NCBI GenBank assembly: GCA_013822735.1
Contig: PNKZ01000020.1
Location: forward strand, 1-64,000
Origin: Pirellula sp.
Lineage (GTDB): Bacteria > Planctomycetota > Planctomycetia > Pirellulales > PNKZ01
Reading direction: 5' to 3'
DNA length: 64,000 nt
A program made the position numbers and the translations under genes. Position 1 is the first letter of the stretch; the number at the start of each line of letters is the position of its first letter. Shown in pieces: positions 3,695 to 18,382 of the stretch. Under the pieces are notes generated by a model that saw only the letters and a program-made list of their open reading frames with translations, had not been told where the DNA came from and did not search any database.

Positions 3695-5086
3695 TCATAC
3701 CATGTCTTTGCTGATAAAAACGTTCGACCACTTGTAGTCTTCCGCCGGCTCGATGTCTTCGATTTCGCTCGGTCGGGTCACTTCGCCGATATCGGGTTTG
3801 GGGTAACTCAGGCCCCAGGCGACCGCCAAACGATGGTAAGCTTGTCCGGACACGTTTGCCACTAGACTCTCCGGTTTCGGAATTGCGAGATTCTTGATAC
3901 CTTTGCAGTCCTGGTAAAAGCCGCTGAGTTTCTCCGAAAGCCGCGAGATCACGGTTTGATAGAACGGCATTGCGCTACCGCCTCCGGACACGAATACCGG
4001 TAGCTGACTGCGCCACACAGGCGACTTCGGATCACGGGACTTTTTAAGTGCGATGATCGTTTCCCACATCATCTTGTGACAGTCACGTTCGTACTTCTCG
4101 GCTTGTTCTTCGACTTGCTTGGCAATCACGTCGTGACTAGGAACATACTGCTCCATTTCATCGGGCATCGGACTAACGGGGTCATAGCAATCCCATAGCT
4201 GATTAACGTGAGCGTCAACGGCTTGACGAACACCCGACACTCGTTCCCGATAGAGCTTCAACGCACCGAGTCGCTTAACGTCCGCCGTTAGCAGATCATA
4301 GCGGTCGTCGCCGTTAGCGGCGTGAAGAACAAATCCGCAAACGTCGAGCGTGCTCGCGCCGATGTCTACTAAGATGTGTAAGCCCTCGTTTCGCGCGTCC
4401 GAACGTGCATAACCGACCACTTCCGCAGCTACCTCTGGAACCAAGTCGATTTCCGCATCGTCGTCTTCATTCGCGAATTCCCATGACTCGGGTGCGGAGA
4501 GCACGTGTTCGGCAACGCTCAGCGTAATCCCATTAGGCAGAACCGACAGGCACCAAGCGGCTTTGGCGATTCTCTCGTAAGTGTCGAACAGCGGTTGTTC
4601 TGAATAGTCCGCCGAAGGCAGCCCGACATTGAGCGTCCAAGCCAATTTATACTTGCCGTAGAGTTGACGTTGCTCGCGAAGAAACCATTCTCGGACCGTC
4701 CGCAGTGCAAGAGCGAGGAAGGCCACTGCTGCGGGTTCGGCGTCGAAGCTGCCGCCGGTCCCACCGTTTGTCGCCGGCACTCGTTCCTGCCGCAACAGAT
4801 GGTATTTGATATCACGGACTAACGTCGCGCCTTCGCGACGTTTTAGCGAGACTTGGTCGCCGCCACCCAGCCACAACACCGACGGAAGGAGATGCTTAGA
4901 AGTCGAATGTCCAATGTCTCCGAACGAAACCGCGTAGGCACGGCCCCCGTAATGATACGGGGTTCGGATGACGACCTTGCTGCATGACGTGCCGAAGTCG
5001 AAACCGATCACGACTTCGCAAACCTCGCCGCCCGCGACACCCGGGAACTGAGTTGTGGATGGCATGCTGCCGCCTCGGTTGTTCAT
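3695..5086 (-). CDS. Hsp70/actin-fold ATPase, nucleotide-binding domain only
   Basis: The 463-residue protein has the three nucleotide-binding signatures of the Hsp70/actin superfamily in order: phosphate 1 (VIGFDFGTSCSKVVI, residues 27-41), phosphate 2 (LVDIGASTLDVCGF, around 240) and the adenosine motif (VFVSGGGSAMPFY, around 365). It ends soon afterwards, so the peptide-binding domain of DnaK is absent. Proteins of this kind act as ATP-dependent switches or filaments rather than classical chaperones. A start at the internal ATG at 5065 is possible and has a better GAGGCGG site upstream. The gene begins 34 bp after the SNF2 helicase gene on the same strand, which suggests co-transcription and a shared role. 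The fold is clear; the substrate is unknown. Confidence 0.8.
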   Translation of the reverse strand: MNNRGGSMPSTTQFPGVAGGEVCEVVIGFDFGTSCSKVVIRTPYHYGGRAYAVSFGDIGHSTSKHLLPSVLWLGGGDQVSLKRREGATLVRDIKYHLLRQERVPATNGGTGGSFDAEPAAVAFLALALRTVREWFLREQRQLYGKYKLAWTLNVGLPSADYSEQPLFDTYERIAKAAWCLSVLPNGITLSVAEHVLSAPESWEFANEDDDAEIDLVPEVAAEVVGYARSDARNEGLHILVDIGASTLDVCGFVLHAANGDDRYDLLTADVKRLGALKLYRERVSGVRQAVDAHVNQLWDCYDPVSPMPDEMEQYVPSHDVIAKQVEEQAEKYERDCHKMMWETIIALKKSRDPKSPVWRSQLPVFVSGGGSAMPFYQTVISRLSEKLSGFYQDCKGIKNLAIPKPESLVANVSGQAYHRLAVAWGLSYPKPDIGEVTRPSEIEDIEPAEDYKWSNVFISKDMV

Positions 5087-5120: not shown

Positions 5121-8100
5121 CTAAGAGACCCGCACCACCGCCACGAGAACTTCATCGCTGTGGAACCGAATCTTTCGTCGACCTTCGATTTCGAGCGACT
5201 TGCGTTCGGTCCTGTTTCGCAATGCCTGAATTCTTCCCTCCGTGGCCTTCACAAGCGACTCGCGTCGACTCAAACGATGTCGATCCAAAACGATGTCCAA
5301 CTTTCGCCGTTGATCGTCGAGATGACGCATTAGATTCCGCAACTGTAAGTCGGCTCGGTCATCGTTCTGACGCTCGACATCCGCGACAAAGTTATTGAAT
5401 TCGTCCTCAAGCGCGCCGAATAATTCTTCGTCCGCAAGACCGGCGCTGCGGGGTAGGTCGACTTGTTCGCCGGCTTCGAACCAGTCCTCACCATGCAGCG
5501 CACAAGCCATCGCCAGTCGCTCCGAATCGATTCGGCTTAACGGAGCGGAATTATCATCCAGTCGAGAGGCGGCGAAAGCAAGCTTTTCTAGTGACTGTAA
5601 ACCTTCCACGGACCATCGAGCGACGGCCAGCAAGTAAATCCCCCCAGGTATTTCGCATCTATCTTGCCTAACCGTTAAGCTTACTGCTGGATGTAATTGC
5701 TCCGCATGGTCGTTAATCCACTGACTAATGAAGCGAACGACGGGATGAAACTGCGAAATCGTCTCGTAGGCTCGATCCTCGGCGGCAACCGCTCGATTTT
5801 CGAACCGGCAACAAACCGGCCGAGCCGAGTTTTGAGTCAGGCGAGTACTAGGCAATCGTGTTTTGCGAACGAACTCTTCCACTTCTTGCTTGGCGGCGAT
5901 CGACAACTCGATCTCATAGCTGTCGTCATCAAGGCGGCGGAACAAGCAACCGGGAAAGTGCAGGCGAAAAAAGTCCAAGAAGTAAGCGCGCAAGTCATCG
6001 CCGGTGATCCAACGATTCAGTTCCCGGGCGGCTTGGACTTGATTCATAATATAGTCGCCGTAGGCGACCAGATGCGCTGCCTCGCCCTCTAGGTGCTCTT
6101 GCTCCTGGCGAAGATTCGCTAGCGCCTGAGCGGTCTGATCGATCCTCTCTTCTTGCTGGTGTGGCGTGAGATGATCCGAGATTAGGGCGGTGGTAAGATC
6201 ACGCACTTGGTCCCCCAAAATCGCTTCGAAATCGCCTAGAGCTTGGCGACAGAGGTCAAGCTTTTCGTACAACCGCTCGTAGATTCGGGCATCGATAGTT
6301 TCATCGTAGAACAGATTCCAGATCACGATCCTTTGCGCTTCCTGCCCTAAGCGGTCGAGCCGCCCAATCCGTTGTTCTACGCGCATCGGATTCCACGGAA
6401 GGTCGTAGTTCACAAGCACGCGGCAAAATTGAAGATCGATCCCTTCACTACCGACTTCCGATGAAAGCAATATTCGCACGCTTGGGTCGATTCTGAAGCG
6501 TAGGAGTATTTCCTCCTTGGATGCCTTCACGCCGCCGTGCATAACCGCGTTGACGATGCCGTCCTCGGAGAGTCGCTCGCCCAAATAATTCAACGTTTCT
6601 CGGAACGTTGAAAAAAGGACGATCTTTTCGTCCGGATGATCCTGAAAAAATGCTTTAAGCATCGTCTTAAGGCGACGGTACTTCGAATCGTTCTTCCGCA
6701 GCTCCGCGAAATCACCGAAATCGTCGGCCACGTCGATGATGGCCTGCGTGAGAGGACCAATTTCGAGCCGCTCACGTTCTTCCGCTTTCATGTCGTCGAT
6801 ATTATCGCGCTTAGTCCGCCATGCGCGGAGCGTCGCCGGCATCGAACTGGACATCTGTCGTTGAGGCGTTGCGAGAATGAACCGCTCATTGACCGCTCGC
6901 GACAGCGCATAGTCGATGACGAAATCGGTAACCTTGTCGTAGAGCTTGCGCTCGCATGGTGACAGCGATACTTTTTCGGCCGTAGGATCACGAATGACGC
7001 GCCATTCCTTAATATCCCGCTTGCGGGTTCGCGTGATTACATAAGCCAATGGATTGATCGTTTCCAGCCGACGCGCCAAAACGGCCCTGTGGTCGCGGTC
7101 CGCCAGTCGTATCGGATCGGCGGCTTCTTCCCGAGTGATTCGTAGTTGCCGGCTCCCCTTCAACAAGGGATGAGCCAGGGCCTCGTCGAGTAATCGAATC
7201 GTGGTCGTCGGCGATGGATTCGGTTTGAGAAGATGATCCCGAGCATTAACTAGAGGACGACTGGCCTCTAAGATTGATTCTAAGTCGCTGGGCCGCTGAA
7301 ACGTGTCAGCATCGAGTAGCTGCAAGAGTGAAAATAGGTCCTGGTTGTAATTGTGAATCGGCGTGGCGCTGAGCATCAGCAAATTGTCGGTCACAGACCG
7401 AAATAGCCGCCCCAACTCGTTCGTTTGCGAATCGGGATTACGTAGATAATGCGCCTCGTCGATGATCAACATATCGATCAGCGGATCGTCGCTTTCGGCG
7501 GCTCGGAGAAAACGAGCGAGCTCGGCGGTCGAAATCGGTGTCTCGGTCGATTCCCAATCGCGATTCGGACGCGCGCCTTGCAGGCTGCAAATGAGCGCAA
7601 AGCCTCTAAGGCTACTGCTACGATCCTGTAGATGCTGCAACATCCCCGCTGCATCGACAACCTCGGCGCGAACTCCCATTTTATCGGCGAGTTCGCGCCG
7701 CCATTTGTCGCGTAACACCGCGGGACAGAGTACGACTAGCCGACGCAAATCGAAGCGGCTGCGAAGCTCGGTCCATACCAATCCAGCCTCAATCGTCTTG
7801 CCGAGCCCGACTTCGTCGGCGATGAGCAGTGCGTTGCTAGGCGACATCAGAAAACGCAACACAGGTTTGAACTGATACGGATAAAAATCCGTATTCGTAG
7901 TTTCCATGCTATAGATGACGTCCGCGAGTCGCCCAGTGAGACGGACGTGCGTCAGGGTACGTCGCAAGTCGATGACGCGTCCGAGCTTTCCGGCTTGCAA
8001 GAGGTCGACCGGACTTTCCCGATCCACGGGAACGATCTCGAGCTGGTCGCTCGGCACCCAGGATGTGGCGTCCGGAAAACTGACCTGATAGCGTAATCCA

Positions 8101-8192
8101 TCTCCGCGCCGGCCCGGTCTCGTCTGTCCGGTAAGAATTCCGCGGCGCGCGGGGTCGCCCTTCAACCGAACGCGCGAATTAGGTGCAAACAT
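5121..8192 (-). CDS. SNF2/RapA-type DEAD/DEAH helicase
   Basis: The 1023-residue protein has a complete SF2 SNF2-type motor: IADEVGLGKT (124-133), IIDEAH (243-248), LSATP (274-278), and a C-terminal helicase domain with SSEVGSEGIDLQ and EQRIGRLDRLGQ. The first 55 residues resemble the small beta-barrel at the N-terminus of RapA-like proteins. The C-terminal 100 residues are charged and probably coiled coil. An upstream ATG at 8303 exists in frame, but the 37 residues it adds look non-coding and the family-like sequence starts at MFAPNSRV, so I use 8192. Size and layout recall the helicases DrmD (DISARM) and DpdE, but no other DISARM or dpd genes are present. It is probably the first gene of a minus-strand cluster with the Hsp70-like ATPase and the RecD-like helicase. 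It likely translocates on double-stranded DNA; target unknown. Confidence 0.85.
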   Translation of the reverse strand: MFAPNSRVRLKGDPARRGILTGQTRPGRRGDGLRYQVSFPDATSWVPSDQLEIVPVDRESPVDLLQAGKLGRVIDLRRTLTHVRLTGRLADVIYSMETTNTDFYPYQFKPVLRFLMSPSNALLIADEVGLGKTIEAGLVWTELRSRFDLRRLVVLCPAVLRDKWRRELADKMGVRAEVVDAAGMLQHLQDRSSSLRGFALICSLQGARPNRDWESTETPISTAELARFLRAAESDDPLIDMLIIDEAHYLRNPDSQTNELGRLFRSVTDNLLMLSATPIHNYNQDLFSLLQLLDADTFQRPSDLESILEASRPLVNARDHLLKPNPSPTTTIRLLDEALAHPLLKGSRQLRITREEAADPIRLADRDHRAVLARRLETINPLAYVITRTRKRDIKEWRVIRDPTAEKVSLSPCERKLYDKVTDFVIDYALSRAVNERFILATPQRQMSSSMPATLRAWRTKRDNIDDMKAEERERLEIGPLTQAIIDVADDFGDFAELRKNDSKYRRLKTMLKAFFQDHPDEKIVLFSTFRETLNYLGERLSEDGIVNAVMHGGVKASKEEILLRFRIDPSVRILLSSEVGSEGIDLQFCRVLVNYDLPWNPMRVEQRIGRLDRLGQEAQRIVIWNLFYDETIDARIYERLYEKLDLCRQALGDFEAILGDQVRDLTTALISDHLTPHQQEERIDQTAQALANLRQEQEHLEGEAAHLVAYGDYIMNQVQAARELNRWITGDDLRAYFLDFFRLHFPGCLFRRLDDDSYEIELSIAAKQEVEEFVRKTRLPSTRLTQNSARPVCCRFENRAVAAEDRAYETISQFHPVVRFISQWINDHAEQLHPAVSLTVRQDRCEIPGGIYLLAVARWSVEGLQSLEKLAFAASRLDDNSAPLSRIDSERLAMACALHGEDWFEAGEQVDLPRSAGLADEELFGALEDEFNNFVADVERQNDDRADLQLRNLMRHLDDQRRKLDIVLDRHRLSRRESLVKATEGRIQALRNRTERKSLEIEGRRKIRFHSDEVLVAVVRVS

Positions 8193-8481
8193 CTCGCCGA
8201 TCTTACTACACCTCGAAACGGAGTAACCGCTACGACACGGTGATGCGCAATGTCGGTTGGGTCGACAAGCAAGTATCGTAAGCCCGGCTCTTCCGACGGG
8301 CAAGCTCGTGCCCTCGCATGCCGACCGCTTTGTTTCGATGCAAATAGTCGTCCCTGGATAGCATCGCTAAATGCTCTCAGAAGATCGGCTCGCGGCTCGG
8401 ATCTGCATACTCCGCTGATTACGCTCGGTTTAAGGCGCGCTTTTCATCAAGCCTGTGCGTCAGTAATCAGCGGAGGTTAGT
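8193..8481. promoter_or_regulatory. Divergent promoter region between helicase cluster and recombinase module
   Basis: This 289-bp region separates the minus-strand SNF2 gene from the plus-strand winged-helix gene, so both promoters probably lie here. No clear -35/-10 pair stands out. The notable element is the perfect 13-bp inverted repeat listed separately. Confidence 0.45.
8410..8475 (+). promoter_or_regulatory. Perfect 13-bp inverted repeat overlapping a ribosome binding site
   Basis: CTCCGCTGATTAC at 8410-8422 is repeated as its exact reverse complement at 8463-8475, with 40 bp between. The right arm covers GGAG of the ribosome binding site CGGAGG, seven bases before the ATG at 8482. 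In RNA the stem would hide that site; in DNA the arms could bind the regulator encoded just downstream or the serine recombinase. The repeat is seen directly; its role is inference. Confidence 0.7.
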
Positions 8482-8943
8482 ATGAGAACGGATACTGGAG
8501 TTCAGTTGCACCACCTGTTGAAGCAATTGACCGAAGCTCTGATGAAGGCCGTAATCGTCACAGAAGAGCTTCGCCGGGCGACGGCGGCAGAAATCGGGCT
8601 GAACGCACGCTTCGGAAACACGACGTCTTTGCCCAACACCGGCACCGTCAATGGGTGTCCGATCGTCGATGAATCGACGTTCGCCGTACACTGGAAAGGC
8701 AAGACCGTCGTTTTGAAGAACACGCGGCAGTTTCGCCTCATGTATCGGCTAGCACGAAACCCTAACCAATATGTGACGCATCTCGACCTTTTGCACGATG
8801 TTTGGGAGAACGAAGACTTAGCCATCGCAACTGTCCGTAGCGTGGCTAGACATCTTCGCGACCGACTTCGACGTGGAGGCCTTCAAGAGCTTGCCGCCGC
8901 GATCGTGGGCCATAATGGCCACTACACGCTTTCTATTAACTAG
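8482..8943 (+). CDS. Winged-helix (OmpR/PhoB-type) DNA-binding protein
   Basis: The 153-residue protein has an N-terminal helical stretch and a C-terminal domain (about 63-152) that reads like a Trans_reg_C winged helix: a strand-rich start (FAVHWKGKTVVL), a helix pair with VTHLDLLHDVWENED, a recognition-helix region VRSVARHLRDRLRR and a final wing ending YTLSI. It has no receiver domain, so it is not a normal response regulator. A strong CGGAGG site precedes the ATG. It is the first gene before a serine recombinase and ParB-like genes, which suits a repressor or excision-control protein. The inverted repeat over its own ribosome binding site suggests autoregulation. The fold is fairly sure; the target is inferred. 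Confidence 0.7.
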   Translation: MRTDTGVQLHHLLKQLTEALMKAVIVTEELRRATAAEIGLNARFGNTTSLPNTGTVNGCPIVDESTFAVHWKGKTVVLKNTRQFRLMYRLARNPNQYVTHLDLLHDVWENEDLAIATVRSVARHLRDRLRRGGLQELAAAIVGHNGHYTLSIN

Positions 8944-9140
8944 CGGTAGGAATCGGCTGCGAGCCGCGCTCCTGTTTACGGCCACGACTTACTTATGGCC
9001 CTTCACTAGTCGGTGGATTGCCGAGACATTCGTGCAAATTCTTTGCACGTCACTTGCACACGTCTATCTCAATGCCTTGCACGGCGCCGGCACATGATCG
9101 GCAGCGACGAGATTTAGACGACGCTTGTGAGACTACGCCG

Positions 9141-10652
9141 ATGATTGATCTTGAGCGAGCATGGTGGGAATCGGCGAAGCCGGATCAGCCGAAGCCGACT
9201 TCAGAACTCTGCGCCGTCGCCTACTACCGTCATTCGGCGCAAGACCGTCAGGAGAACTCCGTCGCCATTCAGCAAGAACAGGTTCGTCAGTGGGCTGAAG
9301 AAAATGGTGTCGTGATCATTCAAGAGTTCGCCGACAGGGGAAAATCTGGGCTTACCGCGGAAGGACGCGATGCCTTTAACGAGATGATGGAGGAGTGGGT
9401 CAGAAAGCGAATGGACTTTCAGTTCATCCTCTGCCTAGACGTAAGTCGCTGGGGACGCTTTCAAGACATCGACCTTTCTGCCACCTATTCAGCCGAGTGC
9501 AAACGGTTCGGCAAACTTGTCATCTACACGACGCTCGGTAAGCCGAAAGAGAACGACCAGCTCTATCAAGTGCAGGTGCACTTCGAGCGATATCGCGCGG
9601 CGCAGTACAGCAAGGAGCTGAGCGACAAGGTGCTTCGGGGCTGCATTAAGATCGCACAGCAAGGTTTTTGGGCGGGTGGCAAGCCGCCCTACGCATTCCA
9701 GCGTTTGCTGTTAGATGAGACTCGACAGCCGCTTCATCCGCTCTTGGCCGGCCAACGCAAGAGTATTCAGAATCAACGCGTCACACTCTGCCCCGGCGAC
9801 GAGCATCAAGTCACAGTCGTGAAGCGCATCTTTTATGAGTTCGTTAAAGAGCGGCGGCTACCGCAGCAGATTGCTGCCTCGCTCAACACCGACGGAGTGT
9901 TGTCGCCGGGCGGAAAAGCCTGGGATACCGGCAAAGTGAATCGTGTGCTCGCAAATCAACTTTACTCGGGAACGCTCGTCTATAACAAAACGACGCAGAA
10001 ACTCAAAACTCCGACTTGCCGCAACCCGGAGTCAAAATGGGTTACTAAAACGGACGCCTTCGATTCGATTGTCGACTCCGATGTTTTCGAGCAGGCGAAG
10101 CAACTGCTTGCGGAATCCTGCCGGCTGCCGACGACGCCTGAGATGCTGGATTGCCTGCGGCGACTCTTGGAGCAATTCGGGGAAGTACGACAAGGCTTGC
10201 TCGGGAAGGTCACTCGATCACCTTCGAGCGGCGCTTACAAGAAGCAATTTGGTTCGCTGGACGCCGCTTACCAAGCTGTGTTCGATGAAGATCTTGCACG
10301 CGTACGCGATGACGTTGAATCCCAATTGCGGTTGCAGATCCCCGACGTGCAGAAGTACGACAATTTCCTCGTCGTGAATCGAAAGTTCTCCGTTTTGGTG
10401 CAACCGTCGGTCCCAGTTGCTCACGGATACAACCAGTACTGGTACTTTCGACCAGACCTTCGCACCAGCGTCGACATCACGCTCGGGGTCGCCGTAACTG
10501 GGCACGAGGGACCGCAAATTATCGGCTACTTCCCGCTTCCAAGACTTCTGGTTCGAAATCGCAGTATCCGACTCTACGGTTCGTCGGACGCGCGACTCGA
10601 AATGTACGGCTATACCGGTCTCGATGTCATCTTTCAACTGGCGAGGATGTGA
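9141..10652 (+). CDS. Large serine recombinase
   Basis: The 503-residue protein starts with a resolvase catalytic domain: AYYRHSAQDRQ holds the nucleophile serine, followed by a family-like QQEQVRQWA and GKSGL..GR. A recombinase domain follows (GGKPPYAFQRLL, a helix region with INTDGV-like SLNTDGVLSPGG, then NQLYSGTLVYNKT). Such enzymes cut and rejoin DNA at att sites through a serine-DNA link. Residues about 331-385 contain a unit ending FGSLDAAY that resembles the homing-endonuclease-associated repeat found four times in the protein three genes downstream. The frame is open upstream to 9018, but those residues look non-coding; the start at 9141 has no clear ribosome binding site. The stop overlaps the next start (TGATG), so the genes are probably co-translated. 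Confidence 0.85.
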   Translation: MIDLERAWWESAKPDQPKPTSELCAVAYYRHSAQDRQENSVAIQQEQVRQWAEENGVVIIQEFADRGKSGLTAEGRDAFNEMMEEWVRKRMDFQFILCLDVSRWGRFQDIDLSATYSAECKRFGKLVIYTTLGKPKENDQLYQVQVHFERYRAAQYSKELSDKVLRGCIKIAQQGFWAGGKPPYAFQRLLLDETRQPLHPLLAGQRKSIQNQRVTLCPGDEHQVTVVKRIFYEFVKERRLPQQIAASLNTDGVLSPGGKAWDTGKVNRVLANQLYSGTLVYNKTTQKLKTPTCRNPESKWVTKTDAFDSIVDSDVFEQAKQLLAESCRLPTTPEMLDCLRRLLEQFGEVRQGLLGKVTRSPSSGAYKKQFGSLDAAYQAVFDEDLARVRDDVESQLRLQIPDVQKYDNFLVVNRKFSVLVQPSVPVAHGYNQYWYFRPDLRTSVDITLGVAVTGHEGPQIIGYFPLPRLLVRNRSIRLYGSSDARLEMYGYTGLDVIFQLARM

Positions 10653-11536
10653 TGCAGGCTGCCCCCATAGTTCTTATGAAGCAACGGCGACGCGAGATGA
10701 TCCCCATCGAAAAAATTCGCGTCATCAATTCGCGTACTCGCGACGAAACGCAGTTCTCGCTCAACGTGCAAAGTATTGAGGCCGTTGGTCAGATCAAAGA
10801 CATCCGGGTCAATGACAAGTTTCTCGCCCGGGAAGGAGTCTACGAATTGATCTGCGGCGAAGGACGTCTTATCGCACAAAAACGGCTGGGTCGGACCCAC
10901 ATTCGAGCAGAGATCGTGACCTGCACGCGCAAACAAGCCTATCTCGAATCGCTGGTGGAGAACCTCGCACGAAGCAAAGCCGGCACGATGGAGTTTGCTC
11001 GTGAACTCAAGAGACTTCACGATGAAGGCTGGACCTTGGAACAGATTGGACGTATCGCGTGCCGCAACGCCGATTACATGCGTCAGTTTATTCGGCTTGT
11101 TGAAAAGGGCGAAGACCGGCTGATTCAGGGAGTTGAGCTGGGCGTATTCCCAATCTCATTCGCGATACTCGTCGCTCAATCCGACGATGCCGGCATTCAA
11201 AATGTGCTCATGGACGCGTTCGACCAAGGTGTCGTGAACTGCGACAACTTTGCGAAAGCGCGGCAGATCATCAATGCTCGTCGTAAGCGGAAGGGAGGCC
11301 CGGGCGCCAAGTCACAGTACACGATCTCGCATCTCACGTCCGACATCGCCGATGCCACGCAAGCGAAGGATTCCTACGTGCGCGAAGCACAGGGGAAGGA
11401 GAGGGGGCTCTTCACTCTGCTCGATGGCTTCGCAACGCTGTTCGGCGATTTGGAATTGATGCGGCTGCTGAAGTCTGAAGGTCTCGACCGTTTGCCGGAG
11501 CTAACCGGTACATACACTACAAAAGCTGTGAGTTAA
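10652..11536 (+). CDS. ParB/RepB-like DNA-binding protein, first of two
   Basis: The 294-residue protein has the ParB/Srx-type N-terminal domain: an IPIEKIR start, CGEGRLIAQKRLG (68-80; the GxxR nucleotide-site motif) and LVENLARSK (101-109), followed by a helix-turn-helix region with LEQIGRIACRNADYMRQFI (129-147). The C-terminal half resembles the RepB plasmid-partition family. ParB proteins bind CTP and slide on DNA from a centromere-like site. No ParA ATPase is encoded nearby, so classical partitioning is unlikely. A GTG three bases upstream is an alternative start, but the ATG overlaps the recombinase stop as TGATG and is preferred. A second ParB-like gene follows after 21 bp. Known for similar pairs: they travel with serine recombinases in proteobacterial islands. 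Confidence 0.8.
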   Translation: MQAAPIVLMKQRRREMIPIEKIRVINSRTRDETQFSLNVQSIEAVGQIKDIRVNDKFLAREGVYELICGEGRLIAQKRLGRTHIRAEIVTCTRKQAYLESLVENLARSKAGTMEFARELKRLHDEGWTLEQIGRIACRNADYMRQFIRLVEKGEDRLIQGVELGVFPISFAILVAQSDDAGIQNVLMDAFDQGVVNCDNFAKARQIINARRKRKGGPGAKSQYTISHLTSDIADATQAKDSYVREAQGKERGLFTLLDGFATLFGDLELMRLLKSEGLDRLPELTGTYTTKAVS

Positions 11537-11557
11537 TTTGCTCTGGGGGATTTCGAA

Positions 11558-12403
11558 ATGAAGAGTGCCGAAAATTCTGCGAGAGATATCCCGATTGCCC
11601 GCCTGCGTCCGCTTCGCGAGCGCGACGTGACGAGTCGCGAGTACTCCAGAATCCTGGCGAGCATTAAGGCGATTGGTTTGATCGAGCCGCTCGTGGTTTA
11701 TGAAGAAGATGACGGCTTTGTGATTCTCGATGGCGTACAGCGACATAAAGCGCTCATCGAACTAGGGGTTGCAATCGTCCCCTGTATTTTTGGACAAGAT
11801 CGCGAAGCATTTACCGGCAATCGCATGGTGAATCGCGTATCGCCGGTCCAAGAGCATCGCATGATTGAGAAGTCGTTGGAAGAACTCGACGAAAAATCCA
11901 TAGCCTCGGCGCTAGGAATTCAAGGAATAACCTATCGGCGGAAGAAGAACCTGCTCAAGAACCTGCACGCGGACGTAGCTGTGGCATTCGATGCCGGCAG
12001 AATAACGCGAGCGTGTGCTCGTGAGTTGACTCATGTGAAACCTGATCGGCAGAAGGTCATTCTCTCGGCGATGGAGGGATACAACGACTTCGGCCTTGCC
12101 TTCGCCAGAACTCAAATTCTCAAGACGCCGGCCGCGCTTCGGGAAGGAGGGCCGCGTCGCAAAGGACCGTGGGATAAGAGCGCACGAAAGCGTGGCGAGC
12201 TCCTGAAGAAGCTCGCTGAGGCCGAGCAGAAGCATGACTTTTATGCTCGGTTGTATAAGCAGTACACGATCGACATCCTACGTCTGGCGATATTTGGCAG
12301 ATCGCTGATCACCAGCCCGCGTATTCGGCCATATCTCGATGCCAAACATCCTCGAATTGTCGAACAGTTCGAAGCCATTATTTCCGATGCGCGAGGTAGC
12401 TGA
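11558..12403 (+). CDS. ParB-like DNA-binding protein, second of two
   Basis: The 281-residue protein has a ParB-type N-terminal domain: IPIARLRPL, IGLIEPLVVYEED, then LDGVQRHKALIELG (57-70), where the usual GERR-type motif is DGVQR. NRVSPVQEHRMI (92-103) matches the second conserved box. A helix-turn-helix with SIASALGIQGITYRRKK (114-130) follows and the C-terminal part is basic and helical. It is shorter and divergent compared with the first ParB-like protein, so the two probably form a heteromeric pair or bind different sites. The gene lies 21 bp after the first and overlaps the next gene by one base (TGATG). DNA binding is well supported; the process served (element maintenance, recombination control) is inferred. 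Confidence 0.75.
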   Translation: MKSAENSARDIPIARLRPLRERDVTSREYSRILASIKAIGLIEPLVVYEEDDGFVILDGVQRHKALIELGVAIVPCIFGQDREAFTGNRMVNRVSPVQEHRMIEKSLEELDEKSIASALGIQGITYRRKKNLLKNLHADVAVAFDAGRITRACARELTHVKPDRQKVILSAMEGYNDFGLAFARTQILKTPAALREGGPRRKGPWDKSARKRGELLKKLAEAEQKHDFYARLYKQYTIDILRLAIFGRSLITSPRIRPYLDAKHPRIVEQFEAIISDARGS

Positions 12404-13272
12404 TGGCCCGCTGGACTCGCGAGCGAATTATTCGTGAAATCTTGCGTTGTGAAAGCGAACAACGCAAGCTGAGTTCGTCGGCAAGCGGGAATGGCGTCGA
12501 TACGAAGCTTTATCAAGCGGCGCTACGTATGTTCGGGTCATGGCGAAACGCTGTCGTCGCCGCCGGCCTACCCGCATCTGAGTCGAGAAGCCACCGAGAG
12601 TGGACTGCTTCGCGACTTCTTCGATCGATTCGGGCGCTGTCACGTCAGCCGAAACGACTGACGGCCGAGGAAGTTCGCGAACGGTACGGGCAGCTCGTTC
12701 CGGCGGCGCGCCGTTACTTTGGCTCTTGGTCCAAGGCTTTGGTTGCGGCCGGCGTGACGCCGAGTCGCTCGCCTAACGCTAATAAATGGAGCGAAGCCGG
12801 GGTCATGGAAGCGATTCTCACACGAGCTATTCGCAACGAATCGATGGAGCAGGGGGCGGTGCGGCCCAGGTCGCTCGTTCAAGCGAGCATATCGCTTTTC
12901 GGCTCATGGCACGATGCAATTCAACTCGCGGGAATCGACGCGGCCGACAACGCATCGACCGAGGTTTTTGAATCAGAAGTTACTCGACCAATTGCGCTGG
13001 TGCCAACGGTTCATCTAAGCTCATCAGAGCCATTGAACGAGCATCGACGAGGTACTCGCTGGTCGGAACAGGAGATTCTCGAGGCATTGTTGCGGAGATA
13101 TCGCAGTCACTCGTCTCTAGGCGTCAGCGTGGTTCAGAGGGAGCATCGCGCTCTGTATCGAGCGGCTCGTGCCTTCTACGGCAATTGGAACAACGCGCTG
13201 CTGGCGGCCGGGCTAGTGGGTGACGGAGTGCCCAAAGGTCCAATCGCTCCTGCCAATCGTCCCCAAGTGTAG
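12403..13272 (+). CDS. Protein with four homing-endonuclease-associated repeats
   Basis: The 289-residue protein consists almost entirely of four units of 50-60 residues. Each has an aromatic start (RWT, EWT, KWS, RWS), two helices, and a closing box: FGSWRNAVVAAG (44-55), FGSWSKALVAAG (106-117), FGSWHDAIQLAG (166-177), YGNWNNALLAAG (259-270). This is the pattern of the homing endonuclease associated repeat (HNH_repeat family), a Myb-like DNA-binding unit. No HNH or other nuclease motif is present, so it is probably a sequence reader rather than an enzyme. Its start overlaps the stop of the second ParB-like gene. The recombinase upstream carries one similar unit, which suggests both read related DNA. 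A linker at 180-216 separates units 3 and 4. Confidence 0.7.
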   Translation: MARWTRERIIREILRCESEQRKLSSSASGNGVDTKLYQAALRMFGSWRNAVVAAGLPASESRSHREWTASRLLRSIRALSRQPKRLTAEEVRERYGQLVPAARRYFGSWSKALVAAGVTPSRSPNANKWSEAGVMEAILTRAIRNESMEQGAVRPRSLVQASISLFGSWHDAIQLAGIDAADNASTEVFESEVTRPIALVPTVHLSSSEPLNEHRRGTRWSEQEILEALLRRYRSHSSLGVSVVQREHRALYRAARAFYGNWNNALLAAGLVGDGVPKGPIAPANRPQV

Positions 13273-13576
13273 TTCACTCTGCAGTTGTTCCGACGCCAAA
13301 TGCAATACCTCCGGCACCAAAGGCACCGCCGTGATCCTCACGCTTTGCGCCGGCGACGGCTACGGTTCGATTGAGGTCGAAGCCGATGCGGAAACTCCAC
13401 CCCAAAAGCATCCGCGCTAGGTTAATTCCACTATGGTGACGACGAACACCCAGCACGTAGCGGCCGGGTGGTTTCATTTCTGCGTGTGCCGGTTTGCAGC
13501 CCCTCTTCCGCAGGGGTAAACTCTCGGGGTAATTGCCCACGCCATTGAGTTGCACCGTCAGAGCGATCTCGCCCGC
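13273..13576. other. Gap between recombinase module and ABC-3C operon
   Basis: This 304-bp stretch separates two plus-strand operons. A minus-strand frame crosses it and the start of the next gene, but its protein has no recognisable features and I do not call it. The promoter of the ABC-3C operon should lie here; none is obvious. Confidence 0.4.
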
Positions 13577-14788
13577 ATGTCGACGTCGTCCCGCCCGCAG
13601 TCCGCCGATCCGAGCGCGATTGGTTACTACTTCCAAGGCCAGTATGCGCTTGTCGTGATCTCCACCGCGAGCGACGACGCCGTCGTCAGCATCGAGACGG
13701 CCGACGACGTCGAAGTGCAAGACGGCATCACGAGCCTACACCAGATCAAGCACAGCCTCGGCGCTCCGGCGACTCTATCGCTCGTCGATGTCGGACTGTG
13801 GAAAGCGATCCTCAACTGGTCGGGACGTCCGCATGACGGAACCGAAGAGTTCGTCTTCGTGACCTGCGCATCGCTTGCATCCGAGCTGGCCCTGCTCACC
13901 GAACGCGGGAATGACCGAACCGCCCTCGTCACGGCAATGCTCGGCGAGGCGATGCGGGTCAGGCTTGAAAGGGCCCAAGCAAAAGCGGATAAGAAAAAAA
14001 AACTTCCGCACGAAAAGAGATTCAGGGGATGCGAGGCGTTCCTCAATCTTTCCATTCCCCAGCAATCCCGGCTGGTTAACCTCATTCGTGTCGTGCCGGA
14101 TAGCTTCGATGCGACGCAGGTATCCGCACGCCTGCAGACGGCTCTCGGATCATGCTTGCCGCCGAAGCTACGCGAACAGATATTCGAACGACTCATCGAG
14201 TGGTGGGACCGCCAAGTCGCGCTGTCGCTCTTGGGAACGCGCAAACGGCAAATCGCCAAGCTCGAAGTGCAGACTCACCTATGCAAATTGGTGAACGAGC
14301 ACTATCCAGAGTCCCTGCCCAACCATTTCGGCCTGAAGACACCCGAAGGTGACGACACTGGCTTGGGCCGCATCATGGAAAAGCAAATCGAATGGGTCGA
14401 TGGGGGCAAGAATCGCTTGGCTCGCGCGGCCCTCGCCCGCTGGCGTGCTCGCAACCAACGCGAACGCTGGATCAAAGACGATATCTCCATGGCAGCGACC
14501 CTGATCGACTATGACATGCAGCTCAAAGAGAAATGGAGCGACCGCTTCGGGCCGATGTGCGACGACTGCGACGGCAAGGCCGAAAAAGAACGCACCGGTG
14601 CCGGCCTGCTAATACTCGAATGGTCGCATATCAGCGCCACGACAGATATCGCGCCGATCCGTGAATCGTGGCCGCATTCGTTTTTGATTCAGGGGAGCCT
14701 CCAGCAGCTCGCAGAAGAAGGTGAAGTCGGCTGGCATCCGGACTATGTCGATAAGCTCAAAGCCCTCAAGAAAGAGGGCGACAAATGA
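13577..14788 (+). CDS. ABC-3C system protein with Cap4-like nuclease-type N-terminus
   Basis: The 403-residue protein begins IGYYFQGQYALVV, then VSIETADDVEVQ and LHQIKHS. The residues E40, D43/D44, Q56 and K58 give the D/E-QxK pattern of restriction-endonuclease-fold effectors such as Cap4/DUF4297. The rest is helical, with a region rich in Trp and Cys (CDDCDGK) and an ending GSLQQLAEEGEVGWHPDY typical of ABC-3C C-terminal domains. In ABC-3C systems this protein is the effector that is held or triggered by an SMC-like ATPase. I choose the ATG at 13577; a TTG at 13550 is also in frame. The stop overlaps the next start (ATGA). The role is defence by family analogy, not shown here. Confidence 0.75.
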   Translation: MSTSSRPQSADPSAIGYYFQGQYALVVISTASDDAVVSIETADDVEVQDGITSLHQIKHSLGAPATLSLVDVGLWKAILNWSGRPHDGTEEFVFVTCASLASELALLTERGNDRTALVTAMLGEAMRVRLERAQAKADKKKKLPHEKRFRGCEAFLNLSIPQQSRLVNLIRVVPDSFDATQVSARLQTALGSCLPPKLREQIFERLIEWWDRQVALSLLGTRKRQIAKLEVQTHLCKLVNEHYPESLPNHFGLKTPEGDDTGLGRIMEKQIEWVDGGKNRLARAALARWRARNQRERWIKDDISMAATLIDYDMQLKEKWSDRFGPMCDDCDGKAEKERTGAGLLILEWSHISATTDIAPIRESWPHSFLIQGSLQQLAEEGEVGWHPDYVDKLKALKKEGDK

Positions 14789-15267
14789 CGTCTATCGACA
14801 CCTACGCCTCGACGAACCCGGCGCTACTCGCCATCGTGCTGCGTTCGTTCGTACTGGGGTACTTCGAAAAGAAAAAGACCGCGATGCCGTTCCCGCTCAT
14901 CCTCCTGCCGGTCCCGATCGTTCTCACGGCCGAGGTCGCGGAGACCTTCGGCTCGACCAACGTCACAACAGGGCTGATCCCTTGGGTGACGCGATATCCG
15001 AAGGTGACGGTCGGCATGCGGCAACGACTCGAAGCCACCACGCCTTTCAGCAAGGAGGCCTTCCTGTTCGGGCTTAAGTACGGGCTCTTCGAGGTCGACG
15101 CATCCGGCGGCGTGACCGTGAACCCGAAAGGCTTGAAGAAGAACCCACCGCCGAACGGCTTGGCATACATCACCGACGCATTGAAACTGGCGAAACGCTT
15201 CGGCGCTTGGGTCGCCGGTGCCGGACGTCCCGAAAACGTGTTCGTCAGTCTCGGAGCGCATCGATGA
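14785..15267 (+). CDS. ABC-3C middle component
   Basis: The 160-residue protein lies between the nuclease-like protein and the DUF3732 ATPase, overlapping both neighbours by four bases (ATGA at each junction). It begins IDTYASTNPALLAIVLRSF and continues with a mixed alpha/beta region containing MPFPLILLPVPIVL, a start typical of ABC-3C middle components. These are winged-helix-like linkers thought to join the effector to the ATPase. There are no catalytic motifs. Identification rests mostly on position, size and the N-terminal pattern. Confidence 0.75.
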   Translation: MTSIDTYASTNPALLAIVLRSFVLGYFEKKKTAMPFPLILLPVPIVLTAEVAETFGSTNVTTGLIPWVTRYPKVTVGMRQRLEATTPFSKEAFLFGLKYGLFEVDASGGVTVNPKGLKKNPPPNGLAYITDALKLAKRFGAWVAGAGRPENVFVSLGAHR

Positions 15268-17204
15268 GTCGTTGGCAGATTAAATCGGTGCTCTTCTACA
15301 GCCACGACTCGCGGCTTCTCCAGCTCGATTTCGCGTTGTCGAAACTGACGATCATCGTCGGCGAGTCTTATTCCGGTAAGTCGGCCATCATCGAATCCAT
15401 CGACTACGTGATGGGCTCGACGAAGTCCCATATCCCCGGCGTCGTTGCCGAAACCTGCTCATGGGTGGGCGTCGTCTGGGCGAAGGATAAGAGCGAAATC
15501 ATCATGTGCCGGAAGCTGCCGCCGCTTCTCGGTAAATCGACCGACGACGTCTACATCGACAAGGGCTTCCCGGTTGCCATTCCCCCGACGGCCAACGATC
15601 TATCCAAGAAGACCACGGCCGACGGCGCGTTGCGGATCTTCGAGCAATCGCTTCTGCTCGGCGAGGTGATCGGCCTGACCTTCACCGCGCGCCAGGGAAC
15701 GCGCATCTCGGCACGGTACGCGATGCCGTATGTCCTGATCAGCGACGATGTGATTATCGACAAGATCAACTTGCTGCGCGGCATGAGCGAATGGCGGCAG
15801 GGCCTCATCGACTCCGCTCCGTACTTCCTCGGTGCGGTCGACGAGACGACGGTTAAGACGGAACAACGACTCAAGAAGCTCCGGGCGCAACTCACCAAGG
15901 AAGAAGCTAGGCGGGGGGCGGCAACACTTGCCAATGAAGAAACCGTCCGTAAAGCCAAGGAGCTGCTCGCAGAAGCGGCCGAGGTCGGGCTGATTGCCAA
16001 TGCGGACGTCGAAGCGGTGACCATCGACAATATCAAAGAGGCGCTCGAAGCCGTGGCGGAGTGGACGCCGGCACTGGGCGCCGCCCCGGTGGGAGCCGAT
16101 CGTCTGACCACGCTCTATGCCCAAGAACGAGAAATACTGTCGAGCCTCTCATCGCTCAACGAAAGCCGCCGCGTCGCGAACGACGCCATTAAGGCCGCGA
16201 CGACATTCACGGATACCGCAGGGGACCAGAGAGCCAGGCTCGACATCGCCAAGCTGTTCAAGAGCGAAGCGGAAGTCGACGCCTGCCCGGTCTGCAACGC
16301 CGCGCTAAACGGCCGGACACCCGCCCTCGAAGGAATCCAAGCCGCACTGAATCGTCTCGATGGTGAGCTCAAGGAAGCGGAGCAAGACCGCCCTCAGATT
16401 GACGGCTACATTCTGGAGCTCAGCAACCAGATCGACGTAGCCACCACAGTCTTGAAGAACGTTCGTGCCCAGATCGTCGCGATCATCCGAGAAGCACAGA
16501 ACAAATCGAAGCGGCTCGACATCGATCCACGACGTATGCGAATCGCAGGCCGCGTTAGCTTCTATCTCGAATCGCTTACCAATAACCTCGACACGATCAG
16601 CGACGAGAAGTTCGCCGAGTTGAAGGCCGAGATCGAATACTTGGCAGCGCAGGTAGATCCTGACGCCAAGGACGAGCGAATTGACGCTCTGCAATCCCAA
16701 GTCTCGACAACGGCCACAGCGATTCTGCGGGAATTACCCTTCGATCAGCACTACCGAACCGCCTCTATCATGTTCGAGGCGAGGAAGCTGGCGAGCCGGT
16801 TCGTTATCGGCCCCCGGGTCATGGAAATGCGAGACGTCGGCGGCGACGAAAGCTATCTCAGCGGACGCATTAGCACGCTTCTTGCCCTTCACCGAACATT
16901 TGACAGCGGCAACCGGCCCGTTCCCGGCGTTCTCATCTTTGACCAGATCAGCCGCCCGTTCTACCTCCAGCAAACTCAGGACGGAAAGCCGATCCTCAAG
17001 TCGAAAGACTTGATTGACCTCAAGCGTTATTTCGACCGGCTCTTTGACGAGGTCGACGAGCAAAGCACGCTACAAGTCATCGTTCTGGAGCATGCCTACA
17101 TGGGCCACGATGAGCGATACATCAATGCCGTTAAGCCCGCTTGGAATCCCGACGGTAAGCTCATACCCGAAGACTGGCCGCGCACCGGAATCGACGGTCT
17201 CTAA
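15264..17204 (+). CDS. DUF3732-family ABC ATPase of the ABC-3C system
   Basis: The 646-residue protein is an SMC/Rad50-like ATPase. The Walker A is GESYSGKSAIIESIDYVMG (residues 33-51), followed by the DUF3732-type IPG. A long charged middle is probably two coiled-coil arms around DACPVCNAAL (about 341), a CxxC zinc-hook-like turn. The C-terminal lobe has VPGVLIFDQISRPFYLQ in the Walker B place, with DQ where DE is usual, and ends in a conserved region with LEHAYM. The ATPase probably senses DNA or nucleoprotein structures and controls the nuclease partner. A longer frame opens at 15207, but ATG at 15264 overlaps the preceding stop and starts the family-like SRWQIKSVLFYSHD. Confidence 0.85.
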   Translation: MSRWQIKSVLFYSHDSRLLQLDFALSKLTIIVGESYSGKSAIIESIDYVMGSTKSHIPGVVAETCSWVGVVWAKDKSEIIMCRKLPPLLGKSTDDVYIDKGFPVAIPPTANDLSKKTTADGALRIFEQSLLLGEVIGLTFTARQGTRISARYAMPYVLISDDVIIDKINLLRGMSEWRQGLIDSAPYFLGAVDETTVKTEQRLKKLRAQLTKEEARRGAATLANEETVRKAKELLAEAAEVGLIANADVEAVTIDNIKEALEAVAEWTPALGAAPVGADRLTTLYAQEREILSSLSSLNESRRVANDAIKAATTFTDTAGDQRARLDIAKLFKSEAEVDACPVCNAALNGRTPALEGIQAALNRLDGELKEAEQDRPQIDGYILELSNQIDVATTVLKNVRAQIVAIIREAQNKSKRLDIDPRRMRIAGRVSFYLESLTNNLDTISDEKFAELKAEIEYLAAQVDPDAKDERIDALQSQVSTTATAILRELPFDQHYRTASIMFEARKLASRFVIGPRVMEMRDVGGDESYLSGRISTLLALHRTFDSGNRPVPGVLIFDQISRPFYLQQTQDGKPILKSKDLIDLKRYFDRLFDEVDEQSTLQVIVLEHAYMGHDERYINAVKPAWNPDGKLIPEDWPRTGIDGL

Positions 17205-18177: not shown

Positions 18178-18382
18178 TTACAAGAAAACCGGCCGACTGA
18201 CCGTGCCCAGATGCATGATGGCGGCGGCCGTCAACCGCGTGGATTCGAGATGCCGCCGCTTTGCGACTCGCGAGTGCTAGTTCTGTCGAAACGCCTTAAA
18301 TCACTGGGCTTTAATTGGCACTCGCGAAAGTGTCATTTGCCGTCAGCCGGACTGATACTCGTCGGCTACCAGCAGGGCCGCC
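18178..18382. other. Short gap before the giant repeat-protein gene end
   Basis: Nothing recognisable is seen between the integrase remnant and the 3' end of the giant gene. The end of the giant gene (basic KKKRT tail) lies at 18383. Confidence 0.4.

Follow-up and report, generated by a model that had tools for sequence, protein, structure and literature searches.

A large serine recombinase encoded with two ParB-family proteins: a recurrent gene cassette in Pirellula and other bacteria

The window analyzed here, a 64,000-nucleotide stretch of DNA from Pirellula sp. (contig PNKZ01000020.1, positions 1 to 64,000), carries a cassette that encodes a large serine recombinase followed by two ParB-family proteins, ParB1 and ParB2. 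These three genes, in fixed order, make up a core, and 112 distinct loci have the full set; they come from Proteobacteria, Acidobacteria, Verrucomicrobia, Planctomycetes and other groups. With a probability that we put slightly below even, the cassette of the window is a copy, of planctomycete type, of a site-specific recombination cassette that is widespread and has no name, and in which a ParB clamp controls or aims the recombinase. This reading is preferred because of the fixed gene order, the congruent protein trees, the intact active-site residues and a ParB fold whose nearest structures are bound to cytidine triphosphate (CTP). It is also preferred because of homology that ends abruptly, presence and absence among Sphingobium plasmids, two copies in Rubripirellula obstinata, and settings on plasmids, prophages and islands.

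The three-gene core

The genes of the window cassette are as follows.

8482..8943, plus strand: winged-helix regulator of Trans_reg_C type (Pfam PF00486, E 1.2e-7)
9141..10652, plus strand: large serine recombinase, 503 aa from the ATG at 9141 (PF00239 and PF07508)
10649..11536, plus strand: ParB1, ParB/Noc-like (ParB/RepB-like), with the CTPase signature GxGR..A and ENxAR
11558..12403, plus strand: ParB2, a paralogous ParB/RepB-like protein without the ENxxR motif
12403..13272, plus strand: HNH_repeat protein with four repeats (PF18780 four times, E 3e-20)

A sequence-only reading had described five plus-strand genes at 8410-13272, and the open reading frames and domain matches bear this out, save that the first gene begins at 8482 and no gene begins at 8410; the end of the interval holds. 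The window sequence also contains the two TGATG overlaps that were claimed, at the recombinase/ParB1 and ParB2/repeat-protein junctions, and the third junction of 21 bp, which is a gap between ParB1 and ParB2. As claimed, the gene list and the domain and defence-model scans give no ParA, replication or relaxase gene in the interval.

The 112 loci were drawn from 80 relatives of the recombinase, kept out of at least 577 that a genome scan gave, together with loci from IMG/VR and others. In protein searches of plasmids, the trio turned up in alpha- and betaproteobacteria, with genes that overlap or almost do and with no repeat protein. No related DNA was found in E. coli at the sensitivity used. 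Distance correlations among the three protein trees are 0.90, 0.93 and 0.94, where the permutation maximum is 0.26. Such congruence is also expected from common descent of the host lineages, so the weight lies on the persistence of the three genes together across very different genomes. By this comparison of sequences, the genes for the recombinase, ParB1 and ParB2 descend together as a single unit. The proposal of a conserved unit thus survives, and the unit recurs without ParA, but its extent is three genes rather than five: the four later genes of the window occur together within a planctomycete clade, and elsewhere only the three core genes do.

The recombinase open frame spans 9018-10652 on the plus strand and contains the Resolvase and Recombinase domains of Pfam; the ATG at 9141 is probably the start, because relatives align from there. 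All 112 loci keep the catalytic serine and the VSRWGR arginines without exception. The protein has the makeup of a large serine recombinase, namely a Recombinase domain in addition to a Resolvase catalytic domain in which the active-site serine and arginines are present, and by its retained catalytic residues it appears intact. In a few relatives from Bacteroidota and Patescibacteria (L042, L043, L044 and L049), the recombinase is shorter, and a weakly ParB-like gene lies directly upstream of it, not downstream.

Single-sequence ParB matches of the two window ParBs in Pfam fall under the curated cut-off. Family profiles, in turn, match structures of Noc, Spo0J and ParB, with E 2e-16 for ParB1 and 2e-11 for ParB2. 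The best structural match to an AlphaFold model of ParB1 (mean predicted local distance difference test score, pLDDT, 86.5) is ParB bound to CTP-gamma-S. G-x-G-R and E-N-x-x-R are present in ParB1 at 112 of 112 loci, and ParB1 has both the N-domain fold, as predicted, and the CTP motifs, GxxR and ENxxR, of a ParB CTPase. In ParB2, the glutamate of E-N-x-x-R is absent across the 112 loci, so that it lacks the ENxxR motif for CTP hydrolysis; its similarity to ParB is nevertheless clear by profile, and it has a near-invariant signature of its own, DGxxR ... TxN ... QEHxMI. The ParB pair proposed from the sequence alone therefore stands as to the CTPase signature of ParB1, but the two proteins are not equivalent. 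The ParBs were also considered as relatives of the phiC31 directionality factor gp3, an idea rejected given that no similarity was found and that the phiJoe paper makes no mention of ParB. At one locus, L112 (NZ_CP110863), ParB1 and ParB2 are in a single 594-aa frame, either a real fusion or a sequencing frameshift; the record is labelled a Lactiplantibacillus plantarum plasmid, and its DNA looks alphaproteobacterial, perhaps by contamination.

Clade-specific additions

A conserved stretch of about 135 nt follows immediately after ParB2 in alphaproteobacterial copies, as at L060:13364-13500 and 40 similar places. Over 25 predicted pairs in these 41 sequences, standard pairs occupy 98.0% of cells, and two-sided changes occur in 47 cells; shuffling gives 11 such cells, and sliding the partners gives 7 at most. 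Lengths that differ by one base and a spacer that varies speak against a coding sequence. The element may be a structured RNA or a folded DNA site. Among 198 genomes of one family, the element is found in 21, ParB2 in 27 and both in 19 (Fisher p 3e-18), and the distance between them is 21-85 nt in 19 of 19 measured pairs. ParB2 copies of a more distant subfamily lack the element, and L086 has a second copy at 18371, 5 kb downstream. In two betaproteobacterial copies (L055:13420-13545 and L091:13420-13545), this position is taken by a strong hairpin of another kind, with z of -3.4 and -5.1 and co-changing stems. Rfam has no match for the alphaproteobacterial element and none for the window. An RNA-model search did not find the element in the window or in other planctomycete loci, and the intergenic stretches of the window fold about like shuffled sequence (best z -1.6).

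The repeat protein is modelled as four three-helix units (mean pLDDT 72.8), for which no fold match was found in the PDB. Its PF18780 repeats place it among HNH_repeat proteins, and a Pfam scan found no HNH nuclease domain in it. The gene follows ParB2 in the window and in L026, L029, L032, L033, L037, L039, L139, L140, L141 and L144; in L040 it lies about 800 bp further downstream, and L038 has kept it and lost ParB2. It is present in 9 of the 10-11 members of one planctomycete clade in the three protein trees, with support of 0.25, 0.77 and 1.0, and is absent from L028, L035, L036 and L252. On this distribution, the repeat protein is an addition of the planctomycete clade, outside the core. 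Several planctomycete-type copies have a conserved small AAA ATPase gene after the repeat protein (L026:5463-6341, L139:1802-2653 and L141:6100-7020), which the window does not, and a short GTCTCAAAGTCTC-like motif lies between these two genes.

The winged-helix gene is common to the window, L026, L021 and a few others, where it lies just upstream of the recombinase, and it is probably a regulator of the operon. In alphaproteobacterial cassettes, a different and divergent helix-turn-helix (HTH) gene takes its place.

Mobility and genomic setting

Presence and absence of the cassette can be followed in Sphingobium plasmids. L003, L108 and L109 carry a segment of about 5.6 kb that comprises the three core genes, an HTH gene and one or two small genes; L106, L110 and L107 have the right flank without the segment. 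At the left junction, the sequence is CGGC(C/T)GTG and then AGG, and two left flanks occur that differ from each other; CGGCCGTG is present at the right end as well. As sequences, these junctions fit site-specific exchange. Several pairs of related copies are homologous only up to sharp limits, about 300-1350 bp ahead of the recombinase on one side and 0-190 bp past ParB2 on the other (mostly 130-190 in alphaproteobacteria), and have unrelated flanks; a Burkholderiales group shares one further gene downstream of the cassette. Rubripirellula obstinata has two cassette copies, each beside different genes. The genome of the window (6.9 Mb), whose relatives and gene content indicate Planctomycetota, has a single copy of the cassette recombinase.

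No clean empty site was found among Stenotrophomonas relatives. Two identical Dyella copies were considered as boundary evidence and rejected, because they lie inside a perfect duplication of at least 139 kb and so give no boundaries; this chromosomal duplication in Dyella jiangningensis SBZ 3-12 (L115, L116 and L127-L138) is possibly an assembly artefact. Upstream of the recombinase, the Rubripirellula/Stieleria group shares a conserved motif, of which the surroundings of the window cassette contain no convincing copy; the one near-match, at 4574, is by our estimate at chance level. In L029 (9839-10312), L033 (9875 onward) and L038 (9805-10312), the stretch that precedes the recombinase, along with a fragment coding for the recombinase N-terminus, recurs about 600 bp further upstream, as if by insertion of elements in tandem.

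The cassette is found on plasmids, on prophage-like contigs and at prophage ends, and on chromosomal islands that include defence islands, frequently next to anti-phage genes. Neighbours on IMG/VR contigs include tail fibre J, tail proteins and endolysins, and the planctomycete-type copies L139-L144 run into tail- and portal-like genes when their sequences are read by eye. Flanking proteins also include tyrosine integrases and TniQ/TniB (Pfam). In the window, the cassette has the following neighbours.

5121-8303, minus strand: DrmD-type SNF2 helicase, to the left
13550-17204, plus strand: ABC three-component operon (CTD7, MC3 and DUF3732) with Lamassu-like matches, to the right

With this helicase and a complete-looking ABC three-component operon around the cassette, the surroundings are a defence island. 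GC content is 0.54-0.59 over the first 13 kb of the window and mostly near 0.60 beyond. For the cassette proteins, PADLOC gives no complete system: it has no model for the recombinase, ParB1 or the repeat protein, and ParB2 has no more than a weak cross-match. Among 105 flanking proteins, there are matches to its models for DrmD, DrmMI, BrxC, Pbe and type IIG enzymes, in counts that stand without a matched control set and that are not independent, because several models cross-match one helicase.

Interpretation and related systems

Under the recombination reading, ParB1 would be a CTP-dependent clamp that loads at a particular site close to the cassette. ParB2, as a non-hydrolysing partner, would supply site specificity or hold ParB1. 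The pair may license or synapse sites for the serine recombinase, which would then insert, excise or rearrange the cassette and sometimes its neighbours. In planctomycete copies, the repeat protein would contribute reading of DNA sequence, and the winged-helix gene would regulate the operon. Mobility is partly supported by the sequence comparisons; the loader-and-bridge role of the ParBs is one that we infer. Several observations weigh against the reading. A recombinase match is uncommon in Planctomycetota (18 of 392 genomes), usually with one copy per genome. Among Sphingobium plasmids the left boundary is not constant, and homologous recombination could instead have acted through an imperfect repeat of 75 bp at L003. 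Neighbouring tyrosine integrases could move some copies. There are no conserved terminal repeats and no common attachment core across the loci, and the search for short repeats matching at both cassette ends, suggested with the original proposal, gave none of at least 13 bases shared consistently.

The sequence-only reading had put the cassette forward as a candidate mobile or defence-related system. Mobility has gained some evidence, in the Sphingobium plasmids and the two Rubripirellula copies, and defence has co-location, which in itself demonstrates no such function. A defence role is possible from context only: the ParB pair might detect or spread on incoming phage or plasmid DNA, which the recombinase would rearrange or disable. 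The place of the window cassette between a DrmD-type helicase and an ABC-3C/Lamassu-like operon, the flanking matches elsewhere to DrmD, DrmMI, BrxC, type IIG enzymes and Pbe, and a mostly single-copy, patchy and position-variable distribution, as in defence systems, all favour this. However, none of the cassette proteins is an effector of a type with known phage- or cell-killing activity, there is no matching PADLOC system, mobile genes are common in defence islands anyway, and the neighbour counts are uncontrolled; overall, the defence explanation is unlikely without being negligible.

A module that maintains its carrier replicon, with dimer resolution or element excision by the recombinase and a part for the ParBs in segregation or copy control, draws on the ParB/RepB ancestry, the many plasmid copies and the copies at prophage edges. 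It is improbable, in that no ParA or RepA ATPase lies beside ParB in the window interval or among the most frequent neighbour families, as ParABS or RepABC would have it, and in that the Sphingobium plasmids have cassette-free relatives and chromosomal copies are common. The probability is slightly lower again for a recombination system with a dedicated structured RNA, in which the element beside ParB2 would act with the recombinase and ParB clamps to choose sites or exert control; the element would come in versions particular to each clade, and in planctomycetes the repeat protein would have taken over its role. The window alone could not exclude that unrelated genes became neighbours by accident, and the winged-helix and repeat genes are not universal, but for the three core genes chance adjacency is refuted by the 112 ordered loci and congruent trees, leaving it a vanishingly small probability.

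The recombinase shares the Resolvase and Recombinase domains and the catalytic serine with large serine integrases, such as phiC31 and CcrAB of SCC elements, and cross-matches NCBIfam CcrB (E 7.5e-7). It differs from them in that it is operon-fixed with two ParB-family proteins and has its own conserved C-terminal region; the gp3 of phiC31 is unrelated to ParB2. ParB1 resembles the ParB/Noc/KorB CTPase clamps, in that profile and model match Noc, Spo0J and ParB with CTP analogues, and the cassette ParBs have C-terminal domain similarity to RepB of repABC plasmids. Unlike either, the cassette lacks ParA, has two unequal paralogues and is linked to a recombinase. TIGR-TasA loci with tasParB have a ParB-like protein in the operon of an RNA-bearing system with variable flanks (PMC12045711). 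Here the recombinase is in the place of Tas, and no Tas protein or TIGR array was noticed, with no search aimed at them. IS110 elements with bridge RNA have a recombinase gene beside a structured non-coding element (PMC11208158). The likeness holds only for alphaproteobacterial cassettes, with a candidate RNA; the recombinase is different, the target-matching loops enter the comparison only on the IS110 side, and the element was not found at the window.

The system had been proposed as undescribed, and this stands: PADLOC has no matching system, and no paper naming the recombinase-ParB1-ParB2 set was found in text searches of the open-access literature, a scope outside which most subscription papers and bioRxiv preprints fall. 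Serine recombinases are in wide use as genome tools, and finding the proteins that control them is difficult. The lasting association of one such enzyme, across long evolutionary distances, with a CTPase-type ParB and a motif-less ParB suggests a control of recombination that we did not find described. Given that the family is broad, that its parts are small and that alphaproteobacterial copies add an unclassified structured element, the question is directly testable.
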